In this document: positions 16,038 to 45,700 of the stretch, in pieces
Layout of the letters: each line of letters starts with the position of its first letter
How positions within the stretch are numbered: position 1 is the stretch's first letter
DNA from: Utricularia gibba
Lineage: Eukaryota; Streptophyta; Magnoliopsida; Lamiales; Lentibulariaceae
Length of the DNA: 64,000 nt
Direction of reading: 5' to 3'
Assembly: GCA_002189035.1 (NCBI GenBank)
Contig: NEEC01000019.1
Coordinates: 1,736,001 to 1,800,000 of the forward strand
Made by a program: the position numbers and the translations under genes
Notes under the pieces: model-generated
Seen by the model: only the letters and a program-made list of their open reading frames with translations
What the model was told of the DNA's origin: nothing
Database searches by the model: none

Positions 16038-16286
16038 TTAGTCCTGAAACTTGACAAGGATTATGTTCTTCTTCTTACGCACACATTTGATCCTTCTGGG
16101 GCAATCCTCGGGGAGACAATGGAACTCATATACACGTCTACGGTTGGATGGCTCCACCACCATGATCCTCAGAAAGTTGCCGTGTGCCACTTTGGCTACG
16201 AATTGAGTCACATTCGGTACCACTTCCTGCTTGAACTGATACATCCCTTCTGTGTGTTTTGCAATCTCTATTTTTCCGATACTCAT
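16038..16286 (-). CDS. Alpha-crystallin-like small protein, isolated copy (82 aa)
   Basis: Belongs to the family that forms the 29.7-42.2 kb cluster. The start is the ATG at 16286 (MSIGKIEIA), matching MxxGxIEI in its relatives; a TTATATAA box at 16331-16338 sits about 45-50 bp upstream. The core reads MYQFKQEV, then FVAKV, FLRIMVVEP, a basic turn, YEFHCLPEDCPRRIK and KKNIILVKFQD. The pattern of alternating hydrophobic strands, with LPxDC before a final strand, resembles the end of an alpha-crystallin domain. There is no signal peptide, no membrane segment and no C-terminal tail. It is intact but unproven as a gene, and its function is unknown. It lies 13 kb from the main cluster and has no CSLD fragment beside it. 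Confidence 0.7.
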   Translation of the reverse strand: MSIGKIEIAKHTEGMYQFKQEVVPNVTQFVAKVAHGNFLRIMVVEPSNRRRVYEFHCLPEDCPRRIKCVRKKKNIILVKFQD

Positions 16287-16330
16287 TTTCACCTCTTTAT
16301 TATTTGATTTTTGTGGGTTTCTGGTATGAT

Positions 16331-16338
16331 TTATATAA
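16331..16338 (-). promoter_or_regulatory. TATA box of the isolated small-protein gene
   Basis: TTATATAA, at the same distance from the start codon as in the cluster members. Confidence 0.6.
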
Positions 16339-16339
16339 G

Positions 16340-17971
16340 AGTTTATGTTTAATGAGTATGTTGGGTGATTACATAAAAAATTAAAAAAAATTCAAAGATT
16401 TGTTAGAAAAAAGATTAAATTATGGTAGTTTTAGGAATTTTTGTGTTTATTTTTTATATTTTCTTGAATGCTGAAAATGTTCCTTCCTATTCAAATTTAT
16501 TTAGAATTTTTTTGTAATTATTTCGGGAATATTGATTGTGAAAATTCTATTTATATGTCGTATTGTGCCATAAAACATGTAATAAGTAATCAATATACCT
16601 TTTACATCAACTTGTAGATATATATGTATCATTAAAATTATGAAAAAAATATTAGCACTTTTTCATTTATACTTAAAATATCATGATTAAAAGTAATTCA
16701 TTATATGTTTAATTCAGAATTTATAAGCTCTAATATAGCATATTTTAATGTACATTTTGAGTTGAAGCTATACTGAAAATTTAAAGTGCGATTTCCAGTT
16801 CATTGATTTTGATAATTCTATTTATGATGAATCTCATTACTATGGAAGGAAACATATCATATTATGTCACAAAACTTGTAATAAGTAATAGTATTGTCAC
16901 ATTATATAACATTTACATTAAAGCATATGTAATATATATATTTAGTACTAATATGAACAAAATATTAGCATTTATTCATTTATTTTAAAATTTTATATGT
17001 TTAATTCAAGTTTCTAATAATATTCATATTTTTGAAAAAAATAGGATTCTAGATTTGATCCGATTTGGAAATTTCTAGGTTTTTACAAAATTTAGTTCCA
17101 TTCTATTACATTTTTACTTGAGGAATTATAAATTTTTAGTGGGCCCTTTTTGGGTAAGGCAGGTGAGAGGGGCTGGTTCACTCTTACAGCCCAACACGCA
17201 GATCCAGAGCGCGGAGCATCAGTAACGGCATTTGCCCCTTTACATGGCATGGGTTCTTTCGGCACGTGGGTAATTGGACAGCAGCATCTGGAAGCCCCGG
17301 AGCCTGACCCATTTGGAGGGGAGGCGTCGGCCGACTGGGAATTCGCCGACGGGCAACCGCCCAATTATGGCCCTTGGGCCACCCAGCCGGCAGGTCGTCC
17401 CTTTTATCGGACACTGTTCTAACTTCTCTGCTTTTTTCTTTTCTTCTGAGAAGTGAAATGATACACAGTTTATTGAACTTTCTAAAATGAAAGGATGGTT
17501 TTTGATATCACGACATTGATTTAAACTTCAGTGGTTTGTTTATGAGAAACTGTTTCAAATAACTCGAAGATGAGTCCTGCGCGGAGGAGGAACACGGCAG
17601 CAATGAATGGCGCCGGCCCCAGCAAGTCCATTTCCTTGCTTGTAGCACCCGATCGCTACCCTCTTTTCGTCCCTCTTACTCCACTATGAAAAAAACAGAC
17701 AAAATGCTCAGAGTTCGAAGATCTTTAAGAAGAGTAAATGAGAGATACCATTCAATTATATGACTATGAAATCAACCAATGTCAACATCATTTGAGCTAT
17801 TGGATGGCCACACAGACTAGTAATTCAATTTCTGTCCCCATTTTCTCTAACTCTTCTTCTTCCATTTTTTTACGTATGTTTTTCAGATCCAATCCATTTC
17901 TACTCCACTCTCCCTTTCTTTTTCCCACATTTTCCTCCCAACAGCTTTCAGCGAGCGTGCAACTGCAGAAA
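16340..17971. other. Intergenic upstream of the CLE gene
   Basis: AT-rich to 17,130. A GC-rich island at 17,140-17,410 has overlapping open frames on both strands but no domain I recognise. The pyrimidine-rich stretch at 17,820-17,940 is probably the CLE 5' leader. Confidence 0.45.
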
Positions 17972-24653: not shown

Positions 24654-27545
24654 CCTTCTTCCCCAGAAGCAAGAATAAACGAAAGCAGCAAGAACAGGAA
24701 TAACACCGCTTGGTTTTTCACAAAGGCTACCGCTCCTCTGTTTCTGTGATTCTTTGATTTCAGAAAGAGAGAGAGAGAGGCACAAAGTAAGGAGTCAGTG
24801 TGTGGGCATCGCAGAGAGGGGTGCCATTTGGGAGGGAGGGAGGAGGAACAATAATGCTGCCACGAATATATACGCCAACACCTAATTAATTATCCAATAA
24901 ATAATATAATTAAATAAATATCTCTCATTTTAAATTTACAATTTAAATTTCTTACATACACTCATCGGAATTTACAATTCATGCCTTTTCGAATAAGTTG
25001 TTTCACATGGGACGATGGAGGGTAAAAAAAAGGAAATAATGAAAAAGTAAAAACTTTTTAGGGGTAGAGCAACAGATGGTAAAAAACAACACTAATTTCT
25101 CCGTCTCTATCGCATAAACATGTACTATCGTCTGTGTCCCATCAACGTTGCGCCCATTCCATCAACAAATTCGAGGAACTGAAACGCGATGGACGGCCAG
25201 ATCTCACTCATTCAAATCCGACGGACTCCATGCTTACCAGCCACCAAGTCACAAACTTATTTTTCTAATAATAAATTTAAATATTTAAATTAATAATCGA
25301 AAAATGATTCAATTCTTGTTTTTGATGAGTATATTAAATTTATTACCTTAATTTTCTTTTTATTTTTTTTAAGTTTTTGAGGGATAAGGAGGCGCGTGGG
25401 GAACTGTAGGTTGGATGGGGGCGTGAAGGAGACTTGGCGAACACACGGGATCAAATGATAACGAGATTTCGAACTCAGGCCTGCCCCAGCAACAGGGAAC
25501 AAATTGACCAACGGACCCCGCCCACCGCCGTTAAAGACCCTACTAACCGCTCAGTTAACGGCGTTACAGTCCCCTGCCGTATCGTCTCAAATTCCGGTGC
25601 CGTCCAATCCAATCTCCTCTGCCTTTTAAAATCCCGAGTGTGTGTGTGATACACGCACAACCCACACCAAGTATCATTATTTTATTCAACTATGAGAGGC
25701 GCCAGGCGGGGACTATCGAGTACTGCTGCATCTCCGTATTCGCGGAGTTCATGAGTTGATTTTACTTTTCTTAGAAGCAATCATGAGTTCCCATTTGCCC
25801 CTCCTGCACTGACCAATGATATGCACTGTAAATGAGTCGACGTGGTACGCCGCAGAGGTGGAAGCCAAGTCTTGTGGCTCAAAATGAAGTGGAGCACACA
25901 AGTTGTTCGATGTAATGGCTGACAGGGGGCATGATGGCAATTCCGCTTCCTTTTTATGTATGTATCCTCATAATTGAATGGTGGAGCACACGAACTGCTC
26001 CAAGCAATGGGTGACAGGGGCGAAGGCAGGCAGTGCTAGTGAGTAAAATAGTGGAGCACACTGCGTGTTCGACGTAATGTTTGAGAGAGTGTGTCAGATA
26101 ATTTCCCCGGAGGGGGGAATGCAGCACCAACATTGGAGTCTGGAGTAAAGCAGGACCAGGATATATCTACAGTACAGAGCCTGCCTGCAAGCAGAAAAAC
26201 AACTGATCTATCATTTATTTCTGATTGCATGGCAGGTAGGGTGAGAGAAAGAAAGATGAAATGACAATCCAATCCAGAGACGGTAGCTACCAAGTGGGTT
26301 TACTCAATTTTCTCTGCTGCATCATGTGAAGCATGTCAGTTCACACACGACCACAACCTTCTTAGCACCTCATCTGACGCTCTAGTTTCAGGAAAGAAAG
26401 TCTCACATGAACCAGCCGGAAGCCATCCCACCCGCTCCGATGAATTCAAACTTCGTTGTGTGAACATCAATTATTGGGGAAAGGATCTGTGTTAGTCGGA
26501 AGAAGAGCCCTGGGGGTCACTGAAAATCACCTTTCCGAATCGGGAAATCCAAGTCTCTTCACGTGAGTCGTGGGAAATAACTTTTGCAGGGGGAGACAAG
26601 AAAATGAACAGCAGAAAAAATTTACGGCGTTGAGCGGAACCACCACGGTTTTTGGCTGAGATACTTGGGGGTGAAGAGACTGAACCATGGGGGAGAAAAA
26701 TCTGAAGCGAAAGCTATCGGTGGATAGCTGCTGCCGTATTGAATGCGTTGGTGTACGCACTGTGTGCTGGGTCTGAAACAACAGCTATGAAATTGAACTG
26801 CAGTGGCAGGAACACACTCATTTTACCGATTAGCATTGGGAAAAGAAAATTGAATACAAGGATGTATTACCGGCCGCTTTTTAGCACTGGACTGCATGTT
26901 GGTGGGATCCAATGAAGACTCCGCCCCAATTTCTCCCAAGAAACCTGAATCATCGCACGAAGAGCGATATGAATCAAGCGAGCGAATTCCTCCGACATCC
27001 TTTGAAACCAAACGTCGAACACTTACTCTACACACCCGTCATTCCCCTGTTCTTCCAAAAGGAGCCTTCAATGCCCACATTTTCACAAACAACGTGTCTA
27101 CTTTTCTCATCGCCGACCGATTACACCTCATCGCGTTTGAGAAATTAAGCCATGGCCGTCTCGACTATCGGTGAATGATCTGGACTCGCAGAATGGATCA
27201 CTGGTTTTCTGAAAATGGAAGCGACTGGATGATTCATCACACCCAAGAATACCTCCATGCACCGACTGATGACGGATCTTTTCATCGCCTTACGCTTCTT
27301 CCGCTCCAACCTTCCGTCGTCGTTTTCCGACATCTTCGGCTTCTCCGCCCCCGTCTCGTCACCACAACCAATATTTGAATCGATCAGTGAGAAACAAAAC
27401 CCACTATAATATCCAGAGAAACGGGGAAATTGCCACATTTTTCAAAAGTACCTGGTTTTTATATTATTATTTTATGAAAATTAATGCTACATTCATACCT
27501 TTATTTTACAGTCAATGGCTTTCAAGAGGATTTCAAGTTACGAAC
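24654..27545. other. Intergenic: DELLA 5' region to the LUSTR gene
   Basis: 24,654-24,850 is the DELLA 5' leader, with an AG run at 24765-24779. The region 25,690-27,440 is not AT-rich, contains three short repeats listed separately, and may be transcribed. The longest plausible minus-strand start is the ATG at 27333, a 62-codon frame (MSENDDGRLERKKRKAMKRS to 27145) with a possible splice donor after CMEV. No known domain is present, so I do not call a gene. Confidence 0.45.
25888..26090 (+). repeat. Three imperfect about 40-bp direct repeats with a PPR-like coding pattern
   Basis: Copies start near 25888, 25979 and 26050. Each has GTGGAGCACAC, then a (T)GTTCGA-like core, then GTAATG or GCAATG. 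Translated in the repeat's own frame they read SGAHKLFDVMADRG, GGAHELLQAMGDRG and SGAHCVFDVMFERV, which resembles the second helix of a pentatricopeptide repeat. The copies are not joined into one open frame. They may be relics of a PPR gene or short upstream frames of a transcript. Confidence 0.35.
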
Positions 27546-29768: not shown

Positions 29769-30059
29769 CTAAGAGCATTCACGGCCGATCCCAATACTCG
29801 AAGGGGTTTTCTGAACGATCTCAATCTGGACCACGATGAAGTTATCAATCTTAAACCATGATTTGATTATTCTGGAACAATCATTGGGGAGATAACAGAA
29901 CTTGTATTCATGTATATCCCCGCGCGGATTCACCACTGTGATTCGTAGAAGCTTGTTATCCAACACATGCGCCATGAACGTCACATCACCTTCCACCTCA
30001 AGCTTGAACTCATAAATGGACTCATTGGGTTTTGAAATCTCTATATTTCCAAGGATCAT
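29769..30059 (-). CDS. Alpha-crystallin-like small protein, cluster copy 1 (96 aa)
   Basis: An intact member of the tandem family. An upstream ATG at 30116 is in frame, but it lies only a few bases from the TTATATAA box (30122-30129) and so would be before the expected transcription start; the family-wide position favours the ATG at 30059 (MILGNIEISKPNES). The core reads YEFKLEVEGDV, FMAHVLDNKLLRITVVNPRG, DIHEYKFCYLPNDC and IDNFIVVQIEI, followed by a short tail ending GIGRECS. The order and spacing of hydrophobic strands, and the LPxDC turn before the last strand, suggest a shortened alpha-crystallin fold. No signal peptide, so probably cytosolic. Downstream of a CSLD 3' fragment (30290-30700), as in the other duplicated units. 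Function unknown. Confidence 0.7.
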   Translation of the reverse strand: MILGNIEISKPNESIYEFKLEVEGDVTFMAHVLDNKLLRITVVNPRGDIHEYKFCYLPNDCSRIIKSWFKIDNFIVVQIEIVQKTPSSIGIGRECS

Positions 30060-30289
30060 ATTCACCCCTTTCTTATTTTTTTCCTTGAAGATTTTGTGGT
30101 TTGTTGATAGGTTCATGCAACTTATATAACCATCATATTTTGCGAAATAATAACAAAAAATTCAAAATATTTATTAATAAGATATTAAATTATATCAGGT
30201 TTACCGAATTTTTGTAATCATTTTAAAATTTTTCCTAGAATATTGAAAAAGTTCCTTATATTCTGCTAAATCAAATTTAATGTTTTTAA

Positions 30290-30700
30290 TAAAAATTTGT
30301 AAAAAAGTACATAAAATTGTATTTTATTCTGCTAAATTTGAAAATCATGGAAAGGTGAGGCCAGTGGAACCCGAATTGGGCTACCCGTTGTTGGGCTTGA
30401 CGGCCGCCTACAGCAACGAAAGTGTTATCCCAATAAGCCCACGTCAGCCGTAGATGATCGCCGGAGTTTTTGCTCGTCGGTCCATAAAACTGAACACAGG
30501 CAACGTTTCGTACACCGTCCTCGAGAAGGCTACTACCACTTCACCAGATAGAATGCTCCTCTGCCGCAGATTTCGCGGTGAGCGTGAAGGATATCTCAAT
30601 CCCCGTGATCACTTCAAGGAGTCCTTCCACCACCGCCGCCACGGAGGCGCTGGTGCCGGAAATCAGCCAGAACCGCTCGTTCCTCCACGAAAAGGGTAGA
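30290..30700 (-). pseudogene. Broken 3' fragment of the CSLD gene, copy 1
   Basis: Matches the 3' end of the CSLD gene at 42,640-43,190 on the same strand: it begins in the 3' flank (AAAGTACATAAAATTGT), continues through the last coding segment and the TTTCGTACACCGTCCTCGAG block, and stops at a shared breakpoint CTCCACGAAAAG. Two internal deletions of roughly 60 bp each remove coding sequence. It encodes no catalytic motif and is a relic of segmental duplication. Confidence 0.85.
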
Positions 30701-31317
30701 AACGTTTTAAGGTCAGTATAGAATATTTATATTTAAATTGAAATATATATGATTGTTTGATTGATTAATATATGAATATCAATTTTATATTATTATAATA
30801 GACATTTGATAACAAGGTATTAATATGTATAAATATAATGTAATTAATTATGTAAACAATTAATTGTATATAATGTTTGATATACGAGAATATAAATTTA
30901 AATATAAACGATATACATATAACTAGGTTTTCATCTATTTATATATATTATTCATATATTCAATAAATGAAGATGTGAATAGTATAATTATATTAAATTA
31001 ATATGCATATATTAATCAATCAAACAACGATATATATGTAAATTTATATATATAACATTTATACTTTCTTATCAAACAATATCTAACATACTCATTTTTT
31101 AAGTATATCATTGATATACACAAATAAAGTAAGTACTAGTTATGTGTATAACAATCATATATTAAAACATAATATACAATTGAATATGTATAATATATAC
31201 ACATTCAATTACATCATACTTAAACATATTAATAATTTACTATCGAAATGACACCAAGGTAATTAAGAATGCAGTATATTCCAAATACACTCAAAGTAGC
31301 TCAAACGGGAAGAACAT
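30701..31317. other. AT-rich spacer
   Basis: Nothing recognisable; mostly A/T with TATATA tracts. Confidence 0.6.
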
Positions 31318-31437
31318 TCAGCGTCGGATCCCAGCATCGGAAGACGCATTTTGAGCGATCCCCACACCCTAAGAAGCACGTTCATCGAGGTTAAACTCGA
31401 CTACGACGAAGCCGTCAATCTTTTTGGTTGATTCAAT
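31318..31437 (-). pseudogene. Small-protein family relic (C-terminal part only)
   Basis: Reads KKIDGFVVVEFNLDERAS, an in-frame TAG, then VGIAQNASSDAGIRR and TGA. This is the last strand and the repeat tail of the family, most like copy 32516-32893. The N-terminal two thirds are deleted, and the DNA to the right joins directly to the family's promoter-type sequence. Confidence 0.8.
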
Positions 31438-32224
31438 TACGGAAAAGTTGCATAATTTTTGTATTCATTTTTAGGACATGCAATTCTTTTTGCTACTAAT
31501 ACAAAATAGTTATGTTGTATGGAGACGTTTAAAGAGAATCTGTTGAGTTATATAAAAAAGATTAAAATCAATTGAATATATTTAGAATTTGTAATTTCTA
31601 AATGAGGCAGCGAGTATAATAAAAGACTATTGGGATTCTTTTATGGCTTTTATATTGAGTAATTTTTTCTTTATTCTTAATTTTTTTAAATAGCGAAAAA
31701 AGGTTCATTAGCTCATTCTCTATTTAGACTCTATGGCTATGTTTAGAATTTTTTTGAATAATATATATATTACCTTTTTTTCTACGAAAACATTTCTTTT
31801 AAATCATTTTTTAAAAATAGTGACTACAAAGAATAGAATAGTTGATTGATTCAAAATTTATAATTTCCATATATAAGCTTCAAATTTGAATTCCGAAATT
31901 AAACTATAATTAGAAATTTAAGAATTTGACTGATAGGAGGAACACGATATACATAAAAAAATATGGATTATATTTTAATAAACTAATTCTAATCAATTAT
32001 TAATAATTTTTAATTTATTGTATATTTAATCATATCATTTAATTTTAATTTTGTCCATGTACTATTTTTTGATGTAATAAAGAAGGCTCCACCAATGAAC
32101 TGCTATTCGGCCAAGGAGTGTATTACAAGTCTTACAATTCTTGATGAAATATATGAAAAATGGTCATTCTCAATTAAAATTTTTTATCTGAATATGTGAG
32201 AAATTGAAAATACTAAGAATTTTG
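31438..32224. other. Duplicated upstream flank of the small-protein unit
   Basis: AT-rich sequence that parallels 33,040-33,810, the upstream flank of the next copy. Noncoding. Confidence 0.55.
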
Positions 32225-32360
32225 TAAATGACCCTTCGACCCCGTTTCGTACACTATCCTCGAGAAGGCTACCACCGCGGCGATGATGCTCACCATTCCG
32301 ATCACTATGTGCCGGAAATCAGCCGGAACTGCTCGTTTCTCCACGAAAAGAGTTGAAACG
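32225..32360 (-). pseudogene. Broken 3' fragment of the CSLD gene, copy 2
   Basis: A short block with TTTCGTACACTATCCTCGAG and CCATTCCGATCACTATG, then CTCGTTTCTCCACGAAAAGA. It ends at the same breakpoint (CTCCACGAAAAG) as copy 1, so both probably come from one ancestral truncated copy. Large internal deletions. Confidence 0.8.
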
Positions 32361-32515
32361 TTTTGAGATCATCGTGAATTTCACACAAGGTAATTAAGAA
32401 TTCAGCATATTCCAATGCACTGAAACATCAAAGCAGCTCAAACAAGAAGAAACTCTCAAAGCATGCAAAACCAGCAAATGAATCAGGAACCAAATAAGCA
32501 AACAAGGAAGAACGT

Positions 32516-32893
32516 TCAGAGTCTGAGCCCAGCATCCGAAGGCGCATTTTGAGCGACACGCGCACCCGAAGAGGCATTTTGAGCGATCTGCACACCGGAA
32601 GGCGCATTTTGAACCATCCCTACAGCCGAACCGGCATTTCCAGCGAGCTCAAACTCGACCACGATGAAATTGTCAACCTTTTTGGATGATTTGATCTTTC
32701 TGGTGCAATCCTTGGGGAGGGGACAAAACTTGTATTCATGAATATCGCGGCGGCTGTTCATCACATCGATCCGCAGAGCTTCACCCATCACCCTCGATGA
32801 AAACTTGGTCACAGAGTCTTTCACTTGAAGCTTGAACTCGTACCTGGATCCTGTGTACAGTAAACTCTCAATGTCTCCGATTATCATGTTCAT
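32516..32893 (-). CDS. Alpha-crystallin-like small protein with decapeptide tail, cluster copy 2 (125 aa)
   Basis: Intact. The start is the ATG at 32893 (MNMIIGDIESLL); the open frame extends past the TTATATAA box at 32952-32959 and so cannot begin further up. The core reads YEFKLQVKDSV, FSSRVMGEALRIDVMNSRRD, IHEYKFCPLPKDCTRKIKSS and VDNFIVVEFELAGN. After the core come about three copies of a ten-residue unit, VQNAPSG/AQNASSG/AQNAPSD, each encoded by a 30-bp repeat, ending DAGLRL. No signal peptide. The core parallels the C-terminal half of alpha-crystallin domains (strand, turn, LPxxC, final hydrophobic strand). The tail is polar and probably disordered. It has its own promoter box and lies beside CSLD fragment copy 3. 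Function unknown. Confidence 0.75.
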   Translation of the reverse strand: MNMIIGDIESLLYTGSRYEFKLQVKDSVTKFSSRVMGEALRIDVMNSRRDIHEYKFCPLPKDCTRKIKSSKKVDNFIVVEFELAGNAGSAVGMVQNAPSGVQIAQNASSGARVAQNAPSDAGLRL

Positions 32894-32951
32894 TTTCGTC
32901 TCCTTCTTCGATTCTCTAGGCTTCTGTGGTTTCCTGCAACGTTGCTCCGGT

Positions 32952-32959
32952 TTATATAA
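32952..32959 (-). promoter_or_regulatory. TATA box of cluster copy 2
   Basis: TTATATAA about 60 bp before the start codon. Equivalent boxes occur at 30122-30129, 37972-37979, 39644-39653 and 42147-42155 before the other copies. Confidence 0.6.
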
Positions 32960-33814
32960 GGGTTTCGTTTTGATAATATATTGGGTAATTACCAAAGAAA
33001 AAACAGAAATAATTGGAAATATTCATTGTTGAATATATTGATTATGGAAAATTTACAAAATTTTTGTATTTATTTTTAGAAAATATGCAATTTCTTGGAG
33101 ATTTCTTTTTGTTACTAATACAAAATAGTTATCTTATATGTAGACGTTTGAATTGAATCTGTTAAATAATATTAAAAAGATTAAAATCAATTAAATATAT
33201 TCAGAATTTGGTAATTTCCAAACATGGCAGCGATATTGGGATTCTTTTGTGGCTTTTATATTGAGTAATTTGTTATTTATTCTTATTTTTTAATATAAAA
33301 AAGTTCATTATCTCTTTCTCTACTTAGATGTTTAGAATTTTTTTGATTAATATAGATTACTTTTTTTTCTATGGAAACGTTTGATATTAATTTTTTTAAT
33401 CAATTTTAAAAAATAGTGACTATAAGGAATTGAATATTTGATTGATTCAAAATTTATAGTTTCCATATACATGTTCAAATTTGAATTCCGAAATTAAACT
33501 GTAATTAAAATTTAAGAATTTGATTGATAGGATGAGAACGAGATATATAAAATATGAATTATATTTGAAAAAACTAAGTTAAATAGATTATTAATTATTT
33601 ATAATTTATTTATTATTTTTTTATCATATTTTTTAATTTTAATTTTCTCGATGTGCTATTGTTTGATGTGTAATAAAGAAGATGCCGCCAATGAACTGGT
33701 GCACTTCACCTCGGATGTATTATAAATCTAGTTATCCTTAATAAAGTATGAAAAAAATATTATCCTTAATTAAAAATTTTTAATTTAGATAAAATGAGAG
33801 GGTGGACAATTTTG

Positions 33815-34095
33815 TAAATGATCGATCCGGCCCGGTTTTGTACACTGTCCTCGAGAAGGCTGCTACCATGGCGATATGTTCACTATGCCGATCACTATGG
33901 GGAAATATGACATCCAGTAGCCCTTACAGCACCGCCGCTAAGTGGGTTGCTGGTGCCGGAAATGAGCCAGAACTGCTCGTTTCTCCACCGTTGCTCCCGC
34001 TCTACGCCGACCAATTCACTTCCAGAATGGCTAATCCGATGAGGCAGAGAACAGAGACAGTGCGTGGAGAAACCAGCAGACGATGAGAACAGAAA
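33815..34095 (-). pseudogene. Broken 3' fragment of the CSLD gene, copy 3
   Basis: Matches parts of CSLD between about 42,930 and 43,360: TACACTGTCCTCGAGAAGG, then GCTGGTGCCGGAAATGAGCC, CCGATGAGGCAGAG and AACAGAGACAGTG, with several deletions between blocks. It extends further into CSLD than copies 1 and 2, so it represents a different or less truncated copy. Confidence 0.8.
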
Positions 34096-34506
34096 GAGGT
34101 AGTCTGTTGAAAGATATTATTTTGGGACTCAATGTTAAAATTCAAGATCTGATCGATAGAATAAGCATGCATGTATGTGAAATTTAAATATACAAAAAAA
34201 CATAAATATATTAGAAAAGATTAAATGTCACGGATAAACATGCACATGAAATTTAATTATACAAAAAAACATAAATATATTAGAAAAAATTAAATGTAAC
34301 TAATTAATCCTGATATTTAATTTTTTTATATATTTAATTAATTCATTTTCATTTATCGATTAGTATTATATATTATAACACATAAATATATTCCAAATAC
34401 TCAAAAGTAACACAAAACAAGAAGAAACTCTTGTTTAAGTACCGATCATGCAAAACAAACGTACTAATTAGGAATTGAATAAACAAACAAGGAAGAACTT
34501 TCACAT

Positions 34507-34664
34507 TCAGGGCTTCAGCTTGACCATGATCATGTTAATAATCTTTTTGACTGATTTGATCCTTGTTGAGCAATCATCCGGGAGAGTACAGAACTTGTGT
34601 TCATGTATATTCTCGCGCGAATTCTCCACCTCGATCCGCAGACGCATCCACACGGCAAAATTGA
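34507..34664 (-). pseudogene. Small-protein family, 5'-truncated copy
   Basis: Starts inside the core at MRLRIEVENSRENIHEHKF, then TLPDDCSTRIKSVKK and INMIMVKLKP with a proper stop. The first strands and the TATA box are missing; to the right is unrelated AT-rich DNA (about 34,665-35,470), which may have replaced them by insertion or deletion. An upstream in-frame ATG exists but has no family sequence after it. Confidence 0.8.
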
Positions 34665-35737
34665 GTTTCATAAGTGGAGGCTGGGTTGGGTAACTCACAG
34701 CTTGTTTGAAACCACATATATTCTATTAAATTCAATTCTATTCTTGTAAAATTGATTCTATATTTCAAACATGTATTTGATTATTTTCTATGAAAATCGA
34801 TTTTTGAAAATCAATTTAATTTTCAAAGAAACATGGTTGTGCAGCTTCTAATACAAACTTGTTTTTTTAAATTGATTTTATGAAATGAATTTACTATTAT
34901 AATCATTTATTAATACATAATTACAATTAATACCATTTTTTTAAAAATAAATACGAATTTGCATTTTTTAAAAAAATTTATTCATTCTACTTATATGGAT
35001 TAGGGTTTTACAAATTTTAATTAACAATATAAGAATAATTGATTTTAACAATCAAAATAAAATTTTTCTTTTCCCTTCTCAATGCATCATTTTTCGTTGC
35101 ACTAATGCAATGATTATTTCAGTTGGTAGCAATTTTCTGTTTCGGTAGTACAAGTCTTGGGTTCTTTTGTCGGGACCATCCTATGCCTTCTTTTGTGAAT
35201 TTCTCAAGTTATTTTTCATATGATTAGTTAATAGTTTGATAAATGTTAATGTTATATATATATATATATGTTTTATTTAAATAAATTTTAAAATATGATT
35301 ATTAATGGATAAATATATACTTAATTATAAAAATCACTTTTTATTTTTTCCACTCAAAACATTAATTAATTTTATAATAATCATTCTTAAAAAACACTTA
35401 TATATATATATATATATATCAATTAATTTTTGATTTTGTTAAAATCAATTTGAATTGATATTTCCAAACGTTGACTCAATATGGTATTTACTCATTCTCT
35501 AGCCACTATCTCTCTAATACCTCTCTTCCCCCACGTGAAAAACCAGCAAACCAGAAGAAGATGAGAACAGAAACAAGTCGTCTGTTTCAATGGCCTATTT
35601 GGTGCGATAACCATGTAACTTTGAACAAATACATTCCAAACACTCAAAAGTAACACAAAACAAGAAGAAACTCCTGTTTAAGCACCGATCATGCAAAACA
35701 AACGCACTAATTAGGAACCTAGAAGAACTTTCACATT
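34665..35737. other. AT-rich insert-like DNA and duplicated flank
   Basis: 34,700-35,470 is AT-rich, unlike the other units, and its ends contain GTTTGAAA and, inverted, GTTTGGAA; it may be a nonautonomous element, but this is weak. TA runs at 35258-35268 and 35400-35420. 35,520-35,600 resembles the end of CSLD fragment 3, and 35,625-35,737 is a copy of the family 3' flank. Confidence 0.4.
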
Positions 35738-35766
35738 TAGGGCTTCACTCGACCACGATCATGTTG
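35738..35766 (-). pseudogene. Small-protein family relic (last few codons)
   Basis: Only the NMIVVE end and the following 3' flank remain. It is followed on the right by a family B repeat copy (35768-35942), which may have caused the truncation. Confidence 0.65.
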
Positions 35767-36096
35767 TTGAAATTCAGGATGTAATGGGTTGGGCGAGCGC
35801 AACATGTGAAACCCAAATATACAAAAAACGTAGATTACAATACAAAAAATTAAACCTAACCGATTACTTGTGATTTATAGTTTCTTATATACTTGATTAT
35901 TTTATTTTCATTTTTCAATATGAGATTGTGTATTATGACACATGTTAATAATCTTTTTTACAGATTTGAACAAATATATTCCAAACACTCAAAAGTAACA
36001 CAAAACAAGAAGAAACCCGTGTTTGAGTGTACTGGATCATGCAAAACAAACGCATTAAATAGGAACTGAATAAACAAACATGAAGAACTTTTACAT

Positions 36097-36250
36097 TCAG
36101 GGCTTCATCTCAACCACGATCATGTTAATAATCTTTTTGACAGATTTGATCTTTGTTGAGCAATCCTTTGGGAGAGTACACAACTTGTATTCATGGAGGA
36201 TTCCTTGTCTTTACAAATCTCTATGTTTCCAACAATAATTTTCTCTTCAA
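36097..36250 (-). pseudogene. Small-protein family copy with lost start and internal deletion
   Basis: The N-terminus EEKIIVGNIEICKDKES joins directly, in another frame, to HEYKLCTLPKDCSTKIKS and INMIVVEMKP. The middle strands are deleted, and the start codon has become ATT (AAAATTATTGTTGG against AAAATGATCGTCGG in copy 37489-37917). Confidence 0.85.
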
Positions 36251-36359
36251 TCCTATGAATCTTTCGTGGCTGCTTCCTGCTATGATGATCTGATTTTATA
36301 TGTGTTACATTTTGTGAATATTTTTGGTAATTACCAAAAAAATCACACAAATTCAAAAT

Positions 36360-37488
36360 ATTTAATGATAAAAATATTTAATCATGGTAGTTTTACCGAA
36401 TTTTGTTATTTATTCTTAAATATTCTTAGAATAATGAATATTTTTCTTATTTAGAATACTGAAAAGTTACTTTTGTTATGAGTAAATGTGTGGAAATAAT
36501 ATTTTGAAAATATTAAAATCAATTAAATATATTTTAAGTCAGAATTTCTAATTTTTAAACATGGAAGCTATTATAATACAAATTGCCGGGACTCTTTTAT
36601 TAATTAAATTGAGTAATGGTTAAAGTTATTTAAAAGTCATTTGATAGTAGATTATAATACGTTTAAGTATAATATAATTGGATATATATAATATACGTGA
36701 TTATATATAATATTTTATATTTAAGAATAAAAGTCGTAATATGTGAGTATTATAAATATAACTAATTCAAAAAATGAGTATATGGGTTGTATAATCACAC
36801 AAAAATTGATATAAATATATTAGTTAATCAAACAACGGTTTATATATAAATTTGAGTATAAATATTCTATAATATACTATCAAATACGTTTTTAGAATTG
36901 TTTTCTATGTTTAGAATCTTTTTGCTCATATAGATTATGTTGTTGGGATATAATTTGTATTGATGTATTTTCATTTAACTTTAGTCAATGAGATTGTTCT
37001 AATAATATTCAATGTAATACATTAAAATAATTGTTTATAAGTATAAACAGTATATATTAACAATAGTTAATACAATTACTCAGAAAATATTTAAGACTCA
37101 TAAATATTACATGAAGTTTAATATTCAATATATAAAATTTACATTGAATATAAACATTCGACTCATTTATAATTTTAAAAAATTATTTACATGAAATAGT
37201 TTTAAAAGTTTATTGAATATATAATAAAAATAACATTATTTTTCATAATAATAACAATATTTGTATCAATATATTAATAAACTCAGTTGAATATATAACC
37301 AAAAATTAAAATATGATTTTAAAAAATATACCTTATACAATATTTTTTCATAAAATATTTTTATATAAGAACTGAAATTTTAAAATTAAATTCACAAATA
37401 TTGCTTATAAATTAATATATTTCACATAAAGTATAGTACAAACAAGAATATCAGCATCCAAGCAAATAAACACATGAAGGTATAAGCT
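36360..37488. other. AT-rich spacer inside the cluster
   Basis: No gene or clear repeat boundary; very high A/T content with short TATATA tracts. Confidence 0.55.
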
Positions 37489-37917
37489 TCAAATGGTCCC
37501 AATCCAATCCCAAATGCTCTCTTCACCCTTCTTCACAAAATCCAAATGAGCATTTCTAATGATCTCCGTTCGGGTTCGAGCGACCCCAGGATCCGTACCG
37601 GTGGTTGGAGCGATCGCGGGTTCCGTAACGGTGTTTGAACCGACCGAGGAATCTGTATCGGTGTTTGGATCGACCTTAAACTCGACGACGACGAAATTAT
37701 CAATCCTTTGGGCGGATTCGACGGTTCTGGAGCAGTCAATCGGGAGAGGAGCCAGCTTGAATTCATGTATATCGCGGCGCCGATTCACCACCTCGATTTC
37801 CAGAAATAGTTCATCTATGATATTCACTTTGATCTTGTGGGCATTATCTCTCACTTCAAGCTTGAATTGATATGTGGATTCATTGGGCTTTGTAGTTTCT
37901 ATCTCTCCGACGATCAT
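37489..37917 (-). CDS. Alpha-crystallin-like small protein with repeat tail, cluster copy 3 (142 aa)
   Basis: Intact and the longest member. The start is the ATG at 37917 (MIVGEIETTKPNES); the preceding in-frame codon is GTG. TTATATAA at 37972-37979 lies about 55 bp upstream. The core is the clearest match to an alpha-crystallin pattern: YQFKLEVRDNAHKIKVNII, FLEIEVVNRRRD, IHEFKLAPLPIDCSRTVE and IDNFVVVEFKVD. The Thr/Pro/Val-rich tail that follows (DPNTDTDSSVG, then related units) is encoded by about three diverged 30-bp repeats and differs in sequence from the tail of copy 2. The protein ends EESIWDWIGTI. No signal peptide or membrane segment. Function unknown; structure prediction should be most informative on this copy. 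Confidence 0.75.
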   Translation of the reverse strand: MIVGEIETTKPNESTYQFKLEVRDNAHKIKVNIIDELFLEIEVVNRRRDIHEFKLAPLPIDCSRTVESAQRIDNFVVVEFKVDPNTDTDSSVGSNTVTEPAIAPTTGTDPGVARTRTEIIRNAHLDFVKKGEESIWDWIGTI

Positions 37918-38769
37918 TTTCACTGATTTTTTCTTCGATCCTTGAGGTGCTTGTTCATATGCTGATGTGATTTATATAAGAGTTATATTTTATGAATATG
38001 TTGCGTAATAAAATTCAAAACATTTCTGGATAAAGATATTAAATTATGAAAAATTTACAGCATTATTGTATTTATTTTCAAAGCTTTTACTCAATTTTAT
38101 TCCGAATATATTGTAATTTCTTTGAGAATTCTATTTATTATTGTATTACATGGAGGCGTTTAAAAATAATATTTTACATTAACTAAATATACATTTAATT
38201 CAGATAGAGTTAGACCCGAATACATCCTAGACGAGTTACGGGTTGGACCCATGGTTTTAGTTAAAGTACGGATCTATTGCGGTTCGAAACCACGGGTCAA
38301 AATTAAAAACTAAACCATAAATAATTTCAATCCACGGATCCAGTTATGAGTTTAACCCTTGTGATCAAAGTATTCAAAGCATGCAAACAATCATCTTATT
38401 AGGAACCAAATAAGCAAAGTAGGGTTAGTATATATTATTACTTTATCAGAATTTCGATTTTGCTATAATCAATTTTAGAAAAGTTTTTCCACATGCAACC
38501 ATAGTGTTCTTGATGATGCAGGTACACTACTGCATTGTAATTATATATTAGATTTACTTCATCAAGAAATTGTTATAATAGTAGTTGATGAGACTATAAA
38601 ACTTTGTATCTATAAATACTACAATAACCATGTAACATATAATTAGTATATTCCAAATACTCTTTCATACTAAAACATCATAGTTGCGTGACACAAGAAG
38701 AAGCCCTATTGTTTTAGCACTCAACAGATGCAAACAAACACAAGCATATTAATTAATTAGGAATATGGT

Positions 38770-38811
38770 TCAACGCTGAAGTTTGATGAGGATGACATAA
38801 TCTCTCTTTTT
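38770..38811 (-). pseudogene. Small-protein family relic
   Basis: Reads KKRDYVILIKLQR and stop, the last strand of the family. The rest is missing. Confidence 0.7.
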
Positions 38812-39343
38812 GAATATGTTGTATAATTTTAAAAAAATAAATTCATAATATTTATTGGTAAAGATATTAAATGATGTGTTTTGTGTAAGTTCGTATTCAT
38901 TTTTAATATTTTATAGAATACTCAATTTTAGTTTGAATATTTTGTAATTTTTTATGTATTTTGTTTTGTTATTAATTTAAATTATTATTTTTATATGAAA
39001 CGTGTGAAAGGAGTCTTTTAACTTATTTTAAAAAGATTAATATCGATTAAATATATGCTTATATTTTAGCTATCATAACAATGTTTACAGAAATTCTTTT
39101 ATTGATTAAAATAGTTTTTTTAAACGTAACCATAATGTTCTTTATGACGTAAAACATAAAAACATTATCTCTGTAAATATTAAAATAACCATGTAATTAA
39201 TAATTAGTATATTTCAAATACTATAATATTACACCACGCGACACAAGAAGAAGAAACCCTATTGTTTTAGTTCTCAATACATGCACACAAACACAAGCAT
39301 CTTAATTGATTAGTAACTAAATAAATAAAGCAATTAAAAATAT

Positions 39344-39592
39344 TCAATGCTTAAGTTTGACGATAATGAAATTCTTTTTCTTTTTCACTTATTTGATCTT
39401 TTTCGGACAATGGGAGGGGAGACGTATGAACTTGTAGTCCCATTGAAGCTTCTCCAGATCCAGCACTTGGATCGAAAGAAGATCATCCAACACCTTGGCA
39501 TCGAACGTTATCACATTATCATCCACCTCAAGCTGGTATGCATAACTACAAATTTTTAGTGAACATACCCTCTGTATATTTCCCCGGCTCAT
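39344..39592 (-). pseudogene. Small-protein family copy with a premature stop
   Basis: The ATG at 39592 starts MSRGNIQRVCSLKICS, followed by YAYQLEVDDNV, FDAKVLDDLLSIQV and YKFIRLPSHCPKKIK, then TAA at 39389-39391. Beyond that stop the same frame continues KKKKNFIIVKLKH to a TGA at 39344, exactly the missing last strand. So a single codon change removed the C-terminal strand. A TATATATAAA box is present. It may still make a 67-residue product. Confidence 0.8.
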
Positions 39593-40782
39593 TTTCACCT
39601 CTTTTTTCTAAAACTTGTGTGGTTTGTTGGTAGGTGGATGAAATATATATAAAGGTTAAGTTTTGGGATAATTTGAAAAGAAGAATTCAAAATATTTATT
39701 GAATTATGTTAGTTTGTGGGATTTTGTATTTATTTTTAACATTTTTTGGAATACTCAATTTAATATTTTGGTATATTTTGGTATATTTTGTTTTGTTAGT
39801 AATATAAATTACTTTTTTATATGTGTGAAAGTAATATTTTTTAATTATTCTAAAAATATTAAAATCAATTGCAGCTATCATAATAATGTTTACTGAAATT
39901 TTTATATTTCTCAAATTGAGTAATCTGTTATTTATTCTTAAAATTTTTTGCTATCTTCTGAATTTTTATTCTTTTTTTTTTCTATGAAAAATGTTTGAAA
40001 TAATATTTTAAAAATTTTGTGAATATGTTGCGTAATACAATTCAAAATATTTCTGGATAAAGATATTAAATTGTGACAAATATACAGAATATTTGTATTT
40101 ATTTTCAAAGCCTATGCTCAATTTTGTTTGGAATATATTGTAATTTCTTTGAGAATGATATTATATGGAGACGTTTGAAAATAATATTTTAAATTAACTA
40201 AATATACATTTAATTCAGATAGAGTTGGACCCACATCCATCTAGACGTGTTACAGGTTAGATCCATGGTTTTAGTTAAAATACGGATTTATTATGGTTCA
40301 AAACCCGTGGGTCAAAATTAAAAACCGAAGCGTAAATAGTTTCAACCCATGGATCCAATTATGAGTTTAACCCTTGTGATCAAAGTATTCAAAGCATGTA
40401 AATAAACATCTTTTTAGGAATCAAATAAGCAAAGCAAGGATAGTATATATTATTAATTCATGAGAATTTTCAATTTCGCTATAATCAATTTTAGAATAGT
40501 TTTTCCACATGTAATCATATTGTTCTTGATGATGCAGGTACACTACTGCATTGTAATTATATATTAGATTTACTTCATCAAGAAATTGTTATAATAGTAG
40601 TTGATGAGACTATAAAACTTTGTATCTATAAATACTACAATAACCATGTAACATATAATTAGTATATTCCAAATACTCTTTCATACTATAACATCATAGT
40701 AGCGTGACACAAGAAGGCCTATTGTTTTAGTACTCAATAGATGCAAACAAACACAAGCATCTTAATTAATTAGAAAGATGGT

Positions 40783-40830
40783 TCAATGCTGAAGTTTGAC
40801 GAGGATGACGTTATCTCTATTTTTTAATAT
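40783..40830 (-). pseudogene. Small-protein family relic
   Basis: Reads KNRDNVILVKLQH and stop; the copy B counterpart of the relic at 38770-38811. Confidence 0.7.
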
Positions 40831-41304
40831 GTTGTATAATTTTAACAAAAGAAATTCATAATATTTATTGGTAAAGATATTAAATCATTTGTTTTGTGGA
40901 ATTTTTGTATTTATTTTTAATATTTTATGGAATACTCAATTTTAGTTTGAATATTTTGTAATTTTTTGTGTATTGTGTTTTGTTATTAATATAAATTACT
41001 TTTTTATATAGAAATGTATGAAAGTAGTCTATTAACTCATTTTAAAAAGATTAATATTGATTAAATATATGCTTATATTTTAGCTATCATAACAATGTTT
41101 ACAGAAATTCTTTTATTGATTAAAATAGTTTTTTTAAACGTAATCATAATGTTCTTTACGACGCAAAACATAAAAAACATTATCATTGCAAATATTACAA
41201 TAACCATGTAACTAATAATTAATATATTCCAAATACTATAACATCATAGTCACGCGACACAAGAAGAATAAATCCTATTGTTTTAGTACTCAATCGAAGC
41301 ACAC

Positions 41305-41803
41305 GTGATTGCGACTCGGCCGGTTAACCGGCGAGTCAAACCGGTTAACCGGTTTTCCTTGTCTCACCGGTTAACCGATTAAACGGGTATTGGTTTTTTA
41401 GGATTTTTTTGTTAAAAGCAGCCCTGATATTGATTATCTCAACTTGCAAGGTAATGATTGTTTATTTATAATACTATCTATGGTTCTTGGATAAACATTG
41501 CACAATATCAATTCTTAATTTTTCTTTTTTCAATGCTTGTTTTGTTTTTGCAATTGTATGTAAATGACATCTCAAATCAATGTATTTTTCTGATTTTTTA
41601 TGCTCAATGTTTGAGTTAATGAAAACTTAATAATAATGTTAATGTTTAGAGTTTTATGATTGAAGTTATTATGTTTGTAATTTATTCAATAATAATAATA
41701 ATAATATAAAATAATGAAAACTCAGAGTTTGACCGGTCAAACCGGTTTTTGAAACCGGATCAGTGGAGTACCGATCCGGTTTTGAAACCCGAGTCGCAAT
41801 CAT
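41305..41803. mobile_element. Nonautonomous DNA transposon, 499 bp, with empty-site paralogue
   Basis: Ends are inverted: GTGATTGCGACTCGG at the left and, on the other strand, ATGATTGCGACTCGG at the right. Subterminal CCGGTTAACCGG and ACCGGTCAAACCGG palindromes repeat near both ends. The flanks are CGAAGCACAC (41295-41304) and ACATGCACAC (41804-41813), a diverged 10-bp target duplication. The paralogous duplicated copy near 39,270 lacks the element and has a single ACATGCACAC, confirming the boundaries. No coding capacity. The duplication length suggests a Mutator-like or hAT-like origin. Confidence 0.85.
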
Positions 41804-41868
41804 ACATGCACACAAACACAAGCATCTTAATTGATTAGTTACTAAATAAATAAAGTAATTAAGAAGAT

Positions 41869-42091
41869 TCAACGCTTAAGTTTGACGATAATGAAGTTCT
41901 TTTTCTTTTTCTGAGGAGAGAGGCATGAACTTGCAGTCCCATAGAAGGGTCTCCGGATCCACCACTTTGATCCGTAGAAGATCATCATATACCACCTTGG
42001 CATCGAAGATCTTCACATCATGATCCACCTCAAGCTGGAATGCATACTTGCAATTTTTTAGATCTGCAATCTGTATATTTCCCTTGCTCAT
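41869..42091 (-). pseudogene. Small-protein family copy with C-terminal frameshift
   Basis: The ATG at 42091 starts MSKGNIQIADLKNCK, then YAFQLEVDHDVKIFDAKVV, LLRIKVVDPE and CKFMPLSS. A deletion then removes the LPxxCPKKIK segment and shifts the frame, so the product ends EKELHYRQT; the original last strand (KKKKNFIIVKLKR) is still present in another frame up to 41869. TATATATAA box at 42147-42155. This is the copy closest to the CSLD gene. Confidence 0.8.
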
Positions 42092-42703
42092 TTTCACCTT
42101 TTTTTTTTCTGAAACTTGTGTGTGGTTTGTTGGTAGGTGGATGAAATATATATAAAGTTTGAAATTTGGGATAATTTTAAAAAAAAAAGAATTCAAAATA
42201 TTTAATGAACTATGTTAGTTTTTGGGATTTTTGTATTTATTTTTGTGTATTTTATTTTGTTAATAATACAAATTACTTTTTTATACTTGTGAAATTAATA
42301 TTTTTTAATTATTCTAAAAATATTAAAATCAATTGCAGCTATCATAATAATGTTTACTGAAATTTTTATATTACTCAAATTGAGTAATTTTTTATTTATT
42401 CTTAAAATTTTTTGATATCTTTTGAATTTTTATTCTTTTTTTCTATGAAAAATATTTGAAATAATATTTTAAAAATTTTGATTAAAATAAATTAAACATA
42501 TGTTTTATTCAGAATTCCCAGATTCCAAACATAGAAAAAAAAAGTCGAAATTCTGAAGACCCAATTTGTATTTCTTAGTGTAAATGTTTATCTAAAATTA
42601 TTTTAATATAAAAAAACATAAGTGAATAAAAACACTTTTTCAATAAAAATTTTTAAAAAAAGTACATAAAATTGTGTTTTATTCTGCTTAACTAGAAAAA
42701 AGA

Positions 42704-45700
42704 TCATGGGAAGGTGAAGCCTGAGGATCCCGGAGTGGGCTGGCCGTTGTTGGGGTTGACGGCCACCCAGAGCAACGAGAGTGTTATCGCAATAAGCCCA
42801 GACCAGACGTAGATGATCGTCGGAGTTTTAGCCTGTCGGCCCATGAGGCCTTTCGCGAATGGGTAGAGATGAGCCAGCACCCAGAAACTGAAGAAGGCGC
42901 CGCCGATGAACTTGCTCCACGCCGGCACCGTTTCGTACACCGTCCTCGAGAAGGCTACCACCATGGCGATGATGTTCACCATTCCGATCACAATGGGGGG
43001 TATCATGAGGGACGTCCATTTCACCAGATAGAGATCTGCATAGATGTCGTCCTCATCCTCCGCCGCGGATTTGGAGGTGAGGGTGAAGGAGATCTCTATC
43101 CCTGCGATCACTTTCAGGAGTCCTTGCACCACCGCTGCTAAGTGGGCGCTGGTGCCGGAAATGAGCCAGAACTGTTCGTTTCTCCACCATTGCTCGAGCT
43201 CCACGCCCGACCATTTGACTTCCAGGATGGCTAATCCGATGAGGCAGAGTGACATGCAGAGGAGGAGGACCAGGAATGTGACATCCAGATTCTGTACTAT
43301 GAAATACCCAGAGAACAGAGACAGTGCGGGGAGAAAGCAGTAGACGATGAGGAAGAAGGAGGTGAAGGGGTAGATCCCCACGTTCAGATACGCCAAGCGT
43401 TGGAGAAGCTTCAGATTCTTGCTGGCGAGAAAGGCGTTGTTTCTGGAGAAGAATATCTCGACAGAGCCCGTTGCCCATCTCAGAACCTGATGAAGCCTGT
43501 CTGTGAGATTGATCGGAGCAGAACCACGAAAAGCATCACGCTTGGTTACACAGTACACCGAGCGCCAGCCACGGTTGTGCATCCGGTAGCCGGTGACCAC
43601 ATCCTCCGTCACCGATCCATAGATCCATCCAACGCGATCGCCCCACTCTGTTTTGTCCTCGTACCAGCATGATATCACAGATACCGACTCCGCCACCGTA
43701 GTAGCATTGAGGGGCTGCCGGGGCGCTCTGAGTATTCCGGGGGGCCTTCCATATTTCACGGCGGGATGATCCGCGATGGGCCGCCCATGGAACTCTGCAA
43801 CAGGTATAGACTCCGCTAACATGGTAGAGTTCCCGAATCTCTTGGGTAGCAAATTGACATCCAAATCGGGATCAAAATCGGTTGCCTCCAGAGCATTCGT
43901 CTCTGATTTCTTTTCCAAGCTCAGCATTTTATCAACTTTCGGTGGCTCAAAGCCGTAGAGAGCAAATCTCCGGAACATGCAGCCAGTCCCGACGTACACC
44001 GGCCCTTGGAGGCCATCGAGGGCCCTCATGTTCCCATCGAAGAAGACAGTATTGTGATTAGCATATCGATCGGAAGGGTCGATACCCTCGAACCTCTGGG
44101 GAAATTGGATGTAGCAGATGTCTTCGCCGCCTCTGTCCATCATGAAACACATCCCTTCTCGAATAGCATTCGTGTTGTATATGTAATGATCGCAGTCAAG
44201 ATTGAGGATGAAGGGGCCATTAGAGAGGACTGCAGATGCTCGCACCAGAGCATTCATTGCCCCAGCTTTCTTGTTGTGGTCGTATCCGGGGCGCTTTTCT
44301 CGGGAGACGTAAACGAACATCGGCAAGCGTATGTCGACGTCGCTGAAGTCTATGAACTCCTCGTTTGAGCTTCCCATCAATGGGTTGCTACTGGGAGGCT
44401 TCAGCATCACCTGATAAACAGGGGAAGTGACTGATCAAGTGTACTTTTCAGGCGATGAGATTGCTGTTCTGTTGTACCTGGAGAATTCCGGCGTGGTCGC
44501 CTTTGGCATGCTCCCGTGAAGAAGGAGCCCAGGTACCAGGCCAATGTGTGCCGTCTGCCATCCAAGTTGCTTTGAGAACTTTTATAGGTTCCAGATTGCT
44601 GCCCCCACTCTCCCTCAGATTCTTTATCATCTTCATTTCTTCTCTTGCATTGAAAGCCTCTGATCTTCTCCGAATCGAATCAGGGAGCCCATTGATTCTG
44701 ACCTTAAATTCATCGTATTCCCTCTTCACCTTCCGCCTATCCTTCACAAAATCGAGTCTTTTCTTGTTCTTTGTTGGGTCGCCCTTTAGACTGAAATAAG
44801 TATCTGGATTCCGAGGTTCAATATCGTGCTTCCTGCAAAAAGGCACCCATAAATCTGCAAAGCTCGCTGCCTCCGCCATTGCCTCAAAGGTAAGAAGAGC
44901 TCCACCGTCATCAGAAAGATAGCACGACAGCTTCTCCACCGGGTAGTTAACGGCTAGAATCGACAGTATCGTGTTTGCGGTCACCAATGGCGGCTCCTTC
45001 TCAGGATCAGCAGTAGAAACAAAAAAATCCAATCCTGGAAGATCAGAGCGCCCTGTTGGATTGGAAGGTGATGGCATTTCGAACTTATCACGCAGCAGAT
45101 CCAGATCAGCAGACCGATTAACCGGATGAACCTTAGGAACCTGATCCAGAATCCAAGAAAACGCAAACCATATCTCGCATGTAACTGACATAAGCCATAG
45201 CCAGATTGCCTCTGTGTTGGGATGCCTTACTCTCCATGTCAAGAAGAAACCCATTAAAATCAACCTCGTCACAATCAAAAGCCTGTATGGGCTGATGATG
45301 CTGGTGGGCACCAGTATAACCCGACTGAGAGGCCTCCAGGGCTTATCAGATGTCTCCAGCATCCCCTGATGCATTTCGCCGTCGTCGTCTTCCCCGTCCT
45401 TCGGCCAATACGCATTCCCATATCCATAGGTTCCCTGTGTCGTCTCAAACAGCCATTTGTTATGGTCGAATTCACCATTCTGGTTCCTTTTCATTATAGA
45501 CATGTTGTGACTCTCCCTCTTTGGATTATTGGGTGCTGTCAGAGACAGTGCTCCCTTTGAGTAGTTGGGTATCTCGTTATCATCATCAAATTCATCAACT
45601 TTGTAGGGCTCCTTGCACCCCGGACAGAGCCCAGTGTCTTTGAAAGCGTCCATGTAGCAGTCTCTGCAAATTTTAAACCTGCATTCGCAGGGCACAATGT

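Follow-up and report, generated by a model that had tools for sequence, protein, structure and literature searches.

The 64,000-nucleotide window analysed here (Utricularia gibba contig NEEC01000019.1, positions 1736001–1800000) carries on its minus strand a family of small genes comprising four intact single-exon open reading frames (ORFs; at 16.2, 30.0, 32.9 and 37.9 kb) as well as five clear relics and two scraps (Table 1). The intact copies (c16, c29, c32 and c37) encode proteins of 82, 96, 125 and 142 residues and probably represent a divergent alpha-crystallin-domain (ACD) family, with a predicted role as a non-heat-regulated adaptor or holdase. To locate the copies, seven members were run by tblastn against the window and a family profile was scanned across its six frames; at E<1 the profile marked nine places, all on the minus strand. 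One of these, relic c31, had a profile E of 0.11 and was matched by the 32.5-kb copy in tblastn at E 1.5e-6. DNA self-comparison yielded the two further scraps; the segment that the longer scrap matches includes, over about 30 bases, the last portion of the c34 coding sequence. An earlier note on this DNA had reported four intact ORFs with their coordinates and strand, and we confirmed all of these. It had also counted eleven copies or relics: nine stand by profile and tblastn, and eleven are reached only if both scraps are included.

Table 1. Members of the small-gene family in the window, with associated upstream blocks, repeats and cellulose-synthase-family sequences.
Feature	Positions	Strand	Profile match (E<1)	Remarks
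c16, intact	16038..16286	minus	16044-16286	82 residues; no tail; 13 kb outside cluster
c16 upstream block	16287..16446	minus		TATATAA at -51
c29, intact	29769..30059	minus	29820-30059	96 residues; tail ~15 residues; I-G-I at 89-91
c29 upstream block	30060..30219	minus		TATATAA at -69
Pieces of CSLD 3' end	30283..30688	minus		Just upstream of c29; three segments, 83, 95 and 84%
c31, relic	31324..31440	minus	31390-31440	Domain end and tail; TAG in frame
Pieces of CSLD 3' end	32242..32344	minus		Upstream of c31; 91-92%
c32, intact	32516..32893	minus	32648-32887	125 residues; ATGs at 32893 and 32887; decapeptide-repeat tail ~42 residues
30-bp tandem repeat	32532..32612	minus		2.7 units; codes most of c32 tail
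c32 upstream block	32888..33047	minus		TATATAA at -71 of second ATG
Pieces of CSLD 3' end	33827..34100	minus		Upstream of c32; 87-89%
c34, relic	34507..34671	minus	34513-34671	Second half open; 5' part gone
Scrap	35627..35765	minus		DNA self-comparison; 85% match to 34384-34536; mostly non-coding
Scrap, 29 bases	35941..35969	minus		DNA self-comparison; matches 36121-36149
c36, relic	36100..36239	minus	36103-36210	Start codon lost (ATT); pieces split over frames
c37, intact	37489..37917	minus	37672-37917	142 residues; tail ~60 residues
30-bp tandem repeat	37573..37675	minus		3.4 units, 72% matches; codes first part of c37 tail
c37 upstream block	37918..38077	minus		TATATAA at -61
c39, relic	39350..39592	minus	39350-39592	Whole domain; single in-frame TAA
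c41, relic	41876..42091	minus	41903-42091	Frameshift ahead of last two strands; copy nearest the cellulose-synthase-family gene
Cellulose-synthase-family gene, 3' exon	42704..44410	minus		PF03552

Whole-genome searches (100.09 Mb, 516 contigs) with c37, c29, c16, c39 and c32 returned 7, 8, 7, 6 and 8 matches, respectively, all inside one 26-kb stretch (contig positions 1752026–1778091). The intact copies recovered one another at E values of 2.6e-6 to 1.7e-21, far above chance; the search tool scores only the best candidates, and very weak relatives could escape it. Profile scans detected no further copy (best score 3.1 bits, E 1.4) in the 8 kb flanking the window on each side or in the roughly 4 kb that lie downstream from the three closest paralogues of the neighbouring cellulose-synthase-family gene, which we take to be a CSLD. 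None of the 15 HSP20 (PF00011) and 9 CS (PF04969) loci of the genome falls in the cluster, and patterns from c29 matched nothing in viral contigs. As far as these searches reach, the family is confined, within this genome, to one locus. The motifs that the earlier note had listed as shared are present in some copies but not common to all: HEYKF occurs in exact form in no copies but c29 and c32, clear DNFxVVEF-like ends are seen in c29, c32 and c37, and across eight aligned sequences the Leu of LPxDC is the sole invariant residue.

We used AlphaFold2 to predict the structures of the c29 and c37 products from an alignment of eight window sequences (four intact copies and four relics). The c29 model has a mean predicted local distance difference test (pLDDT) score of 89.6 and a predicted TM-score (pTM) of 0.77, with blocks of 95–97 over residues 1–80 and strands at residues 7–12, 15–22, 27–33, 37–43, 50–56, 61–71 and 74–81. 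The c37 model shows the same seven strands, at 86–95 per block over residues 1–80 (mean pLDDT 76.1), followed by a low-confidence tail with a weak C-terminal helix. The predicted fold is a seven-strand ACD sandwich (beta2–5 plus beta7–9) that begins nearly at the initiator Met.

When the models were compared with the PDB using Foldseek, the best matches carried a probability of 1.00, and small heat-shock proteins (sHSPs) made up 46 of the best 50 of 290 matches for c29 and 48 of the best 50 of 578 for c37. The remainder were CS/p23-type, among them 2kmw, which we presume to be of that type. Re-alignment of Foldseek's own match list with VIA-align placed sHSP/crystallin chains in 43 (c29) and 49 (c37) of the best 50 rows, with best Z scores of 10.9 and 11.0; the other rows were CS domains (5 and 1) and 8elf Get3d with 3igf (2 and 0). 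Wheat 1gme_D scored Z 10.9 (root-mean-square deviation (rmsd) 9.2 over 91) with c29 and Z 11.0 (3.0 over 83) with c37, and the pea HSP18.1 core, 5ds2_A, Z 10.3 (rmsd 2.3 over 77) and Z 10.0 (2.5 over 79). The SGT1 CS domain 2jki_S reached Z 8.7 (rmsd 3.0 over 80) and Z 8.6 (2.9 over 81), and all CS rows lay at Z 8.2–8.7. On these models an sHSP-type domain is favoured over a CS-type one by a modest margin, about 1.5–2.4 Z units. Viral predicted structures gave no match at E≤0.001; the named rows among the best 16 were HSP20- or CS-type and the rest unnamed or uncharacterised. The alpha-crystallin-like core proposed in the earlier note is thus supported by prediction, with two confident beta-sandwich models whose top solved matches are sHSPs. 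As that note had foreseen, the crystallin match is one of low identity (4–22% to sHSPs in the VIA tables), with no family found at the sequence level in Pfam or the PDB.

Both the arms and the dimer loop are regarded as central to sHSP assembly and client binding. In both models the first long strand starts at residue 7 and an N-terminal arm is absent, and the positions of TATA-like boxes agree with the starts read for these ORFs. Among the seven copies whose upstream DNA was compared (c31 and c34 left out), TATATAA or TATATAT lies 51–71 bases before the ATG in six and TATAAAA at −61 in c36, and the boxes align; this is a raw count, without a chance control, in AT-rich DNA. An in-frame ATG upstream of c29, at 30116, is disfavoured because of the TATA position. 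Pairwise identity among six copies is 58–86% over their 160-base upstream blocks. The beta6 dimer loop is also absent from both models, in which the beta5–beta7 loop spans 6 residues in c29 (E37–43 to E50–56) and 4 in c37 (E38–45 to E50–57). In an sHSP survey, this loop is tied to dimerisation and animals form the shortest group, at 13 residues (PMC2850924). The absence of oligomerisation arms claimed in the earlier note therefore holds at the N-terminus but not at the C-terminus, where three of the four intact copies carry tails.

A consensus scan for heat-shock elements (HSEs) covered up to 400 bases upstream of six family genes (c36 left out) and seven HSP20 genes of the same genome. An HSE above chance was found in none of the six family promoters, which contained 7–8 of 9 core bases, equalled by 10–87 of 100 simulated sequences; c16 came nearest (10 of 100). 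Four of the seven HSP20 promoters scored, by one or both of two measures, at a level that 5 or fewer of 100 simulations reach, and the remaining three, two of which had fewer than 200 bases upstream, were not above chance. Heat-shock regulation was set aside on the family result, and by consensus scan the promoters appear to be without a heat-response signal.

The tails of c32 and c37 run over 30-bp repeats, and the c37 tail consists of degenerate decapeptide repeats followed by a weakly predicted helix. By reading, an I/V-x-I/V motif fits c29 and c32, is absent from c16 and is lost in c37. The c32 tail carries V-G-M, V-Q-I, A-R-V and A-G-L spaced in a 10-residue rhythm, and the tail of relic c31 carries V-G-I and A-G-I. 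Motifs of the I/V-x-I/V kind are present in 90% of sHSPs in one survey (PMC2850924). Together with the I-G-I of c29, these motifs would suit true small heat-shock chaperones that form oligomers through C-terminal I-x-I tails, the c32 repeats serving as several docking motifs. Such a function is improbable, given that c16 ends without a tail, that the second hydrophobic residue is missing from the c37 repeats, that neither an N-terminal arm nor a beta6 loop is present and that no HSE rises above chance. A further, highly speculative thought is that a lineage-restricted plant family has reduced its ACD to the bare domain under non-heat promoters and is regaining oligomerisation or partner capture through an expanding decapeptide tail docking in the groove of that same domain.

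The reading we favour, with a probability of roughly 0.5, is a fast-evolving tandem family of minimal ACD proteins that are putative non-heat-induced adaptors or holdases, mostly monomeric or loosely assembled. The family would descend from a plant ACD gene, followed by long divergence, and would have spread as a unit of 'gene end plus small gene' that was duplicated locally; at least five copies have decayed. Its products may act without heat induction as small protein-binding adaptors or holdases, with partners held at the exposed sandwich edges and in the beta4–beta8 groove. Their role would then be nearer to that of SGT1/p23 CS domains or IDM2/IDM3-type ACD adaptors than to that of heat-induced oligomeric HSP20s. 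An adaptor type is the best fit, given that the family lacks arm, loop, HSE and membrane anchor. The proposed monomers are the weakest part, since ROS5/IDM2 is reported to form large assemblies (about 670 kDa; PMC5462541), so that adaptor ACDs need not be monomers.

Besides these assemblies and the uncontrolled TATA count, results from sequence searches, structural matching and selection weigh against this reading. A Pfam scan of six members (omitting c31, c34 and c36) at E up to 10 gave no HSP20 or CS match; the positive control, L010, matched PF00011 at 7.4e-10. A SEN1_barrel match for c37 (E 0.15, under the family cut-off) was discarded as unrelated. Single-protein searches of PDB sequences found nothing, and the sole PDB profile match, ribosomal L35 (E 0.026), is taken as chance. 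L010 (656–1417) and L031 are HSP20-like genes elsewhere in the genome that we take to be RTM2-like; the family was compared with these two and not with RTM2 itself. In hhalign comparisons with eleven HSP20s and these two sequences of the same genome (weak loci L011, L012 and L013 of the 15 left out), scores were 14.8–16.2 and probabilities 1.0–2.5%, with two of the three alignments out of register. Against the eleven HSP20s the score was 15.6 over nine columns, with the LPxDC turn aligned, as expected from its position, to LPEN; against L010 and L031 it was 16.2, at a probability of 2.5%, over 26 columns that were out of register, and against all thirteen 14.8, again out of register. Sequence methods thus place the family nowhere, and it is from the fold that we infer descent from an HSP20-like gene. 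Foldseek, too, gave no PDB match at E≤0.001 (best 4.3e-3 for c29 and 1.2e-3 for c37). The label 'apparently undescribed' used in the earlier note holds as far as Pfam, the PDB and open-licence papers reach, in which no such family was found. No open-licence paper found joins Utricularia with alpha-crystallin, and those found on orphan or tandem plant alpha-crystallin genes concern HSP20.

The lack of HSP20 or CS matches in Pfam and of such a PDB chain by sequence, together with the shallow AlphaFold2 input (eight sequences, half of them relics), also counts against the favoured reading and would suit a different beta-sandwich that AlphaFold2 forced into the well-learned ACD fold. This is very improbable: from the same alignment c29 and c37, at 45% identity, each give the same seven strands at high confidence. 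Almost all of the best 50 rows are ACD entries; the highest Z scores are 10.9–11.0 and the rank-50 scores 8.2–8.5, against a usual best Z of 7–8 for models without a clear relative.

Selection was assessed using the Nei–Gojobori method on 81–83 codons, with 500 bootstraps and 300 neutral simulations per pair. The ratio of nonsynonymous to synonymous substitution rates (dN/dS) was 0.39 for c29–c32, 0.55 for c29–c37 and 0.73–0.88 for the other four pairs. For c29–c32, none of the 500 bootstraps of the ratio of the corresponding proportions (pN/pS) reached 1, and residue identity was 0.56 compared with a neutral-simulation maximum of 0.50; the pN/pS of this pair, 0.53, nevertheless exceeds the lowest neutral run (0.47). 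Residue identities of c29–c37 (0.49 versus a simulated maximum of 0.51) and c29–c16 (0.44 versus 0.48) lie inside the neutral range, as does the pN/pS of c29–c16 (0.83; simulated mean 0.94, minimum 0.45). Pooled pN/pS was 0.76 (bootstrap 0.59–1.00, with 12 of 500 replicates reaching or exceeding 1), and the disabled pair c39–c41 was neutral (pN 0.21, pS 0.22). Coding sequences of the c29/c32/c37 group are 68% identical compared with 42–48% in the 250 nt past the stop. Their upstream blocks (59–70%) are about as conserved as the coding sequence, so that the upstream comparison gives no coding constraint, and in pairs with c16 the upstream block is often the better conserved (72% versus 57% for c16–c37). 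By these measures, purifying selection on the family is weak.

The same figures bear on the alternative of a dying family, in which formerly functional ACD genes are now drifting and the four open frames are survivors without a present role. Five of the nine clear copies are disabled, the pooled bootstrap extends to 1.00, and both c29–c16 and the disabled c39–c41 pair behave neutrally. We nevertheless consider this alternative unlikely, while granting it real weight, as c29–c32 looks constrained, the c29/c32/c37 coding sequences are better conserved than their 3' flanks, and c16 is still open despite lying away from the cluster and sharing 44% identity with c29. Among the adverse outcomes that the earlier note had named, neither a different fold nor a match to a characterised family emerged, and the c29–c32 pair appears to be under purifying selection.

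The birth-and-death of tandem copies and the high dN/dS values among them would also be expected of a stress or defence ACD family whose fast duplication and divergence were driven by pathogens or pests, and RTM2 and SLI1 are HSP20-like resistance proteins (PMC7077274). However, dN/dS exceeds 1 in no pair, and L010 and L031 give no in-register profile match. Both of these proteins end in a hydrophobic segment (maximum KD19 2.04 and 2.97), whereas the four intact family proteins have no membrane-like segment (0.75–1.34). RTM2 membership was set aside on the out-of-register match and the missing segment, and the RTM2 parallel drawn in the earlier note is not supported; a defence role appears distinctly improbable.

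The surroundings of the cluster point to how it may have grown. Pieces of the CSLD 3' end lie upstream of c29, c31 and c32, their recurring source being positions 42636–43363, and the CSLD gene itself lies upstream of c41. The duplicated unit would be the CSLD 3' end plus the small gene, with further local duplications afterwards. Positions 37987–39288 match 40014–41304 at 90%, forming 1.3-kb tandem segments of very AT-rich DNA. No CSLD piece was seen near c16 by DNA self-comparison, and c16 may be an older or separate move. By Pfam, the neighbours are cellulose synthase, a DELLA/GRAS regulator, a GOST seven-transmembrane protein and a Mem_trans carrier. The DELLA/GRAS gene (22882–24785) is split over two frames, one holding DELLA and the first third of GRAS and the other the rest of GRAS, through either a real frameshift or an assembly indel; some of the family frameshifts could therefore be assembly artefacts. 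A dispersed repeat occurs at 14636–14867 and 63189–63420 (79% identical).

Bare ACD genes beside relics, with and without repeat tails, would offer a natural series for testing the function of the bare domain, and would let one follow the conversion of a chaperone fold into something else. That the family was missed by sequence profiles and placed by fold prediction only bears on the nature of plant 'orphan' genes.

Compared with plant HSP20/sHSPs (PF00011; pea HSP18.1 core 5ds2), the family is alike in predicted fold, strand order and the proline turn preceding the last two strands. It differs in that six members have no PF00011 match, that arm and beta6 loop are missing, that no HSE rises above chance and that, by eye, the last strand lacks Gly-x-Leu. 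CS/p23/SGT1 domains (PF04969) share the sandwich without beta6 and are the second-best structural matches (Z 8.2–8.7), with Z below the best sHSPs and PF04969 unmatched in six members. RTM2/SLI1-type proteins are similar as ACD-type proteins outside the heat-shock class; of the two genes compared here, L010 matches PF00011, L031 was found only through L010 (E 0.012), and in both the beta5–beta7 loop also looks short by eye. The likeness to the ACD proteins of the Arabidopsis MBD7 complex is one of description: in PMC5462541, LIL has a mass of 51.9 kDa and carries its ACD at the C-terminus, compared with 82–142 residues here, and ROS5/IDM2 forms large assemblies, unlike the monomers proposed for the family. 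There, IDM2/ROS5 and IDM3/LIL are proposed to bridge partners in the complex, as the minimal ACD proteins described here may also do.

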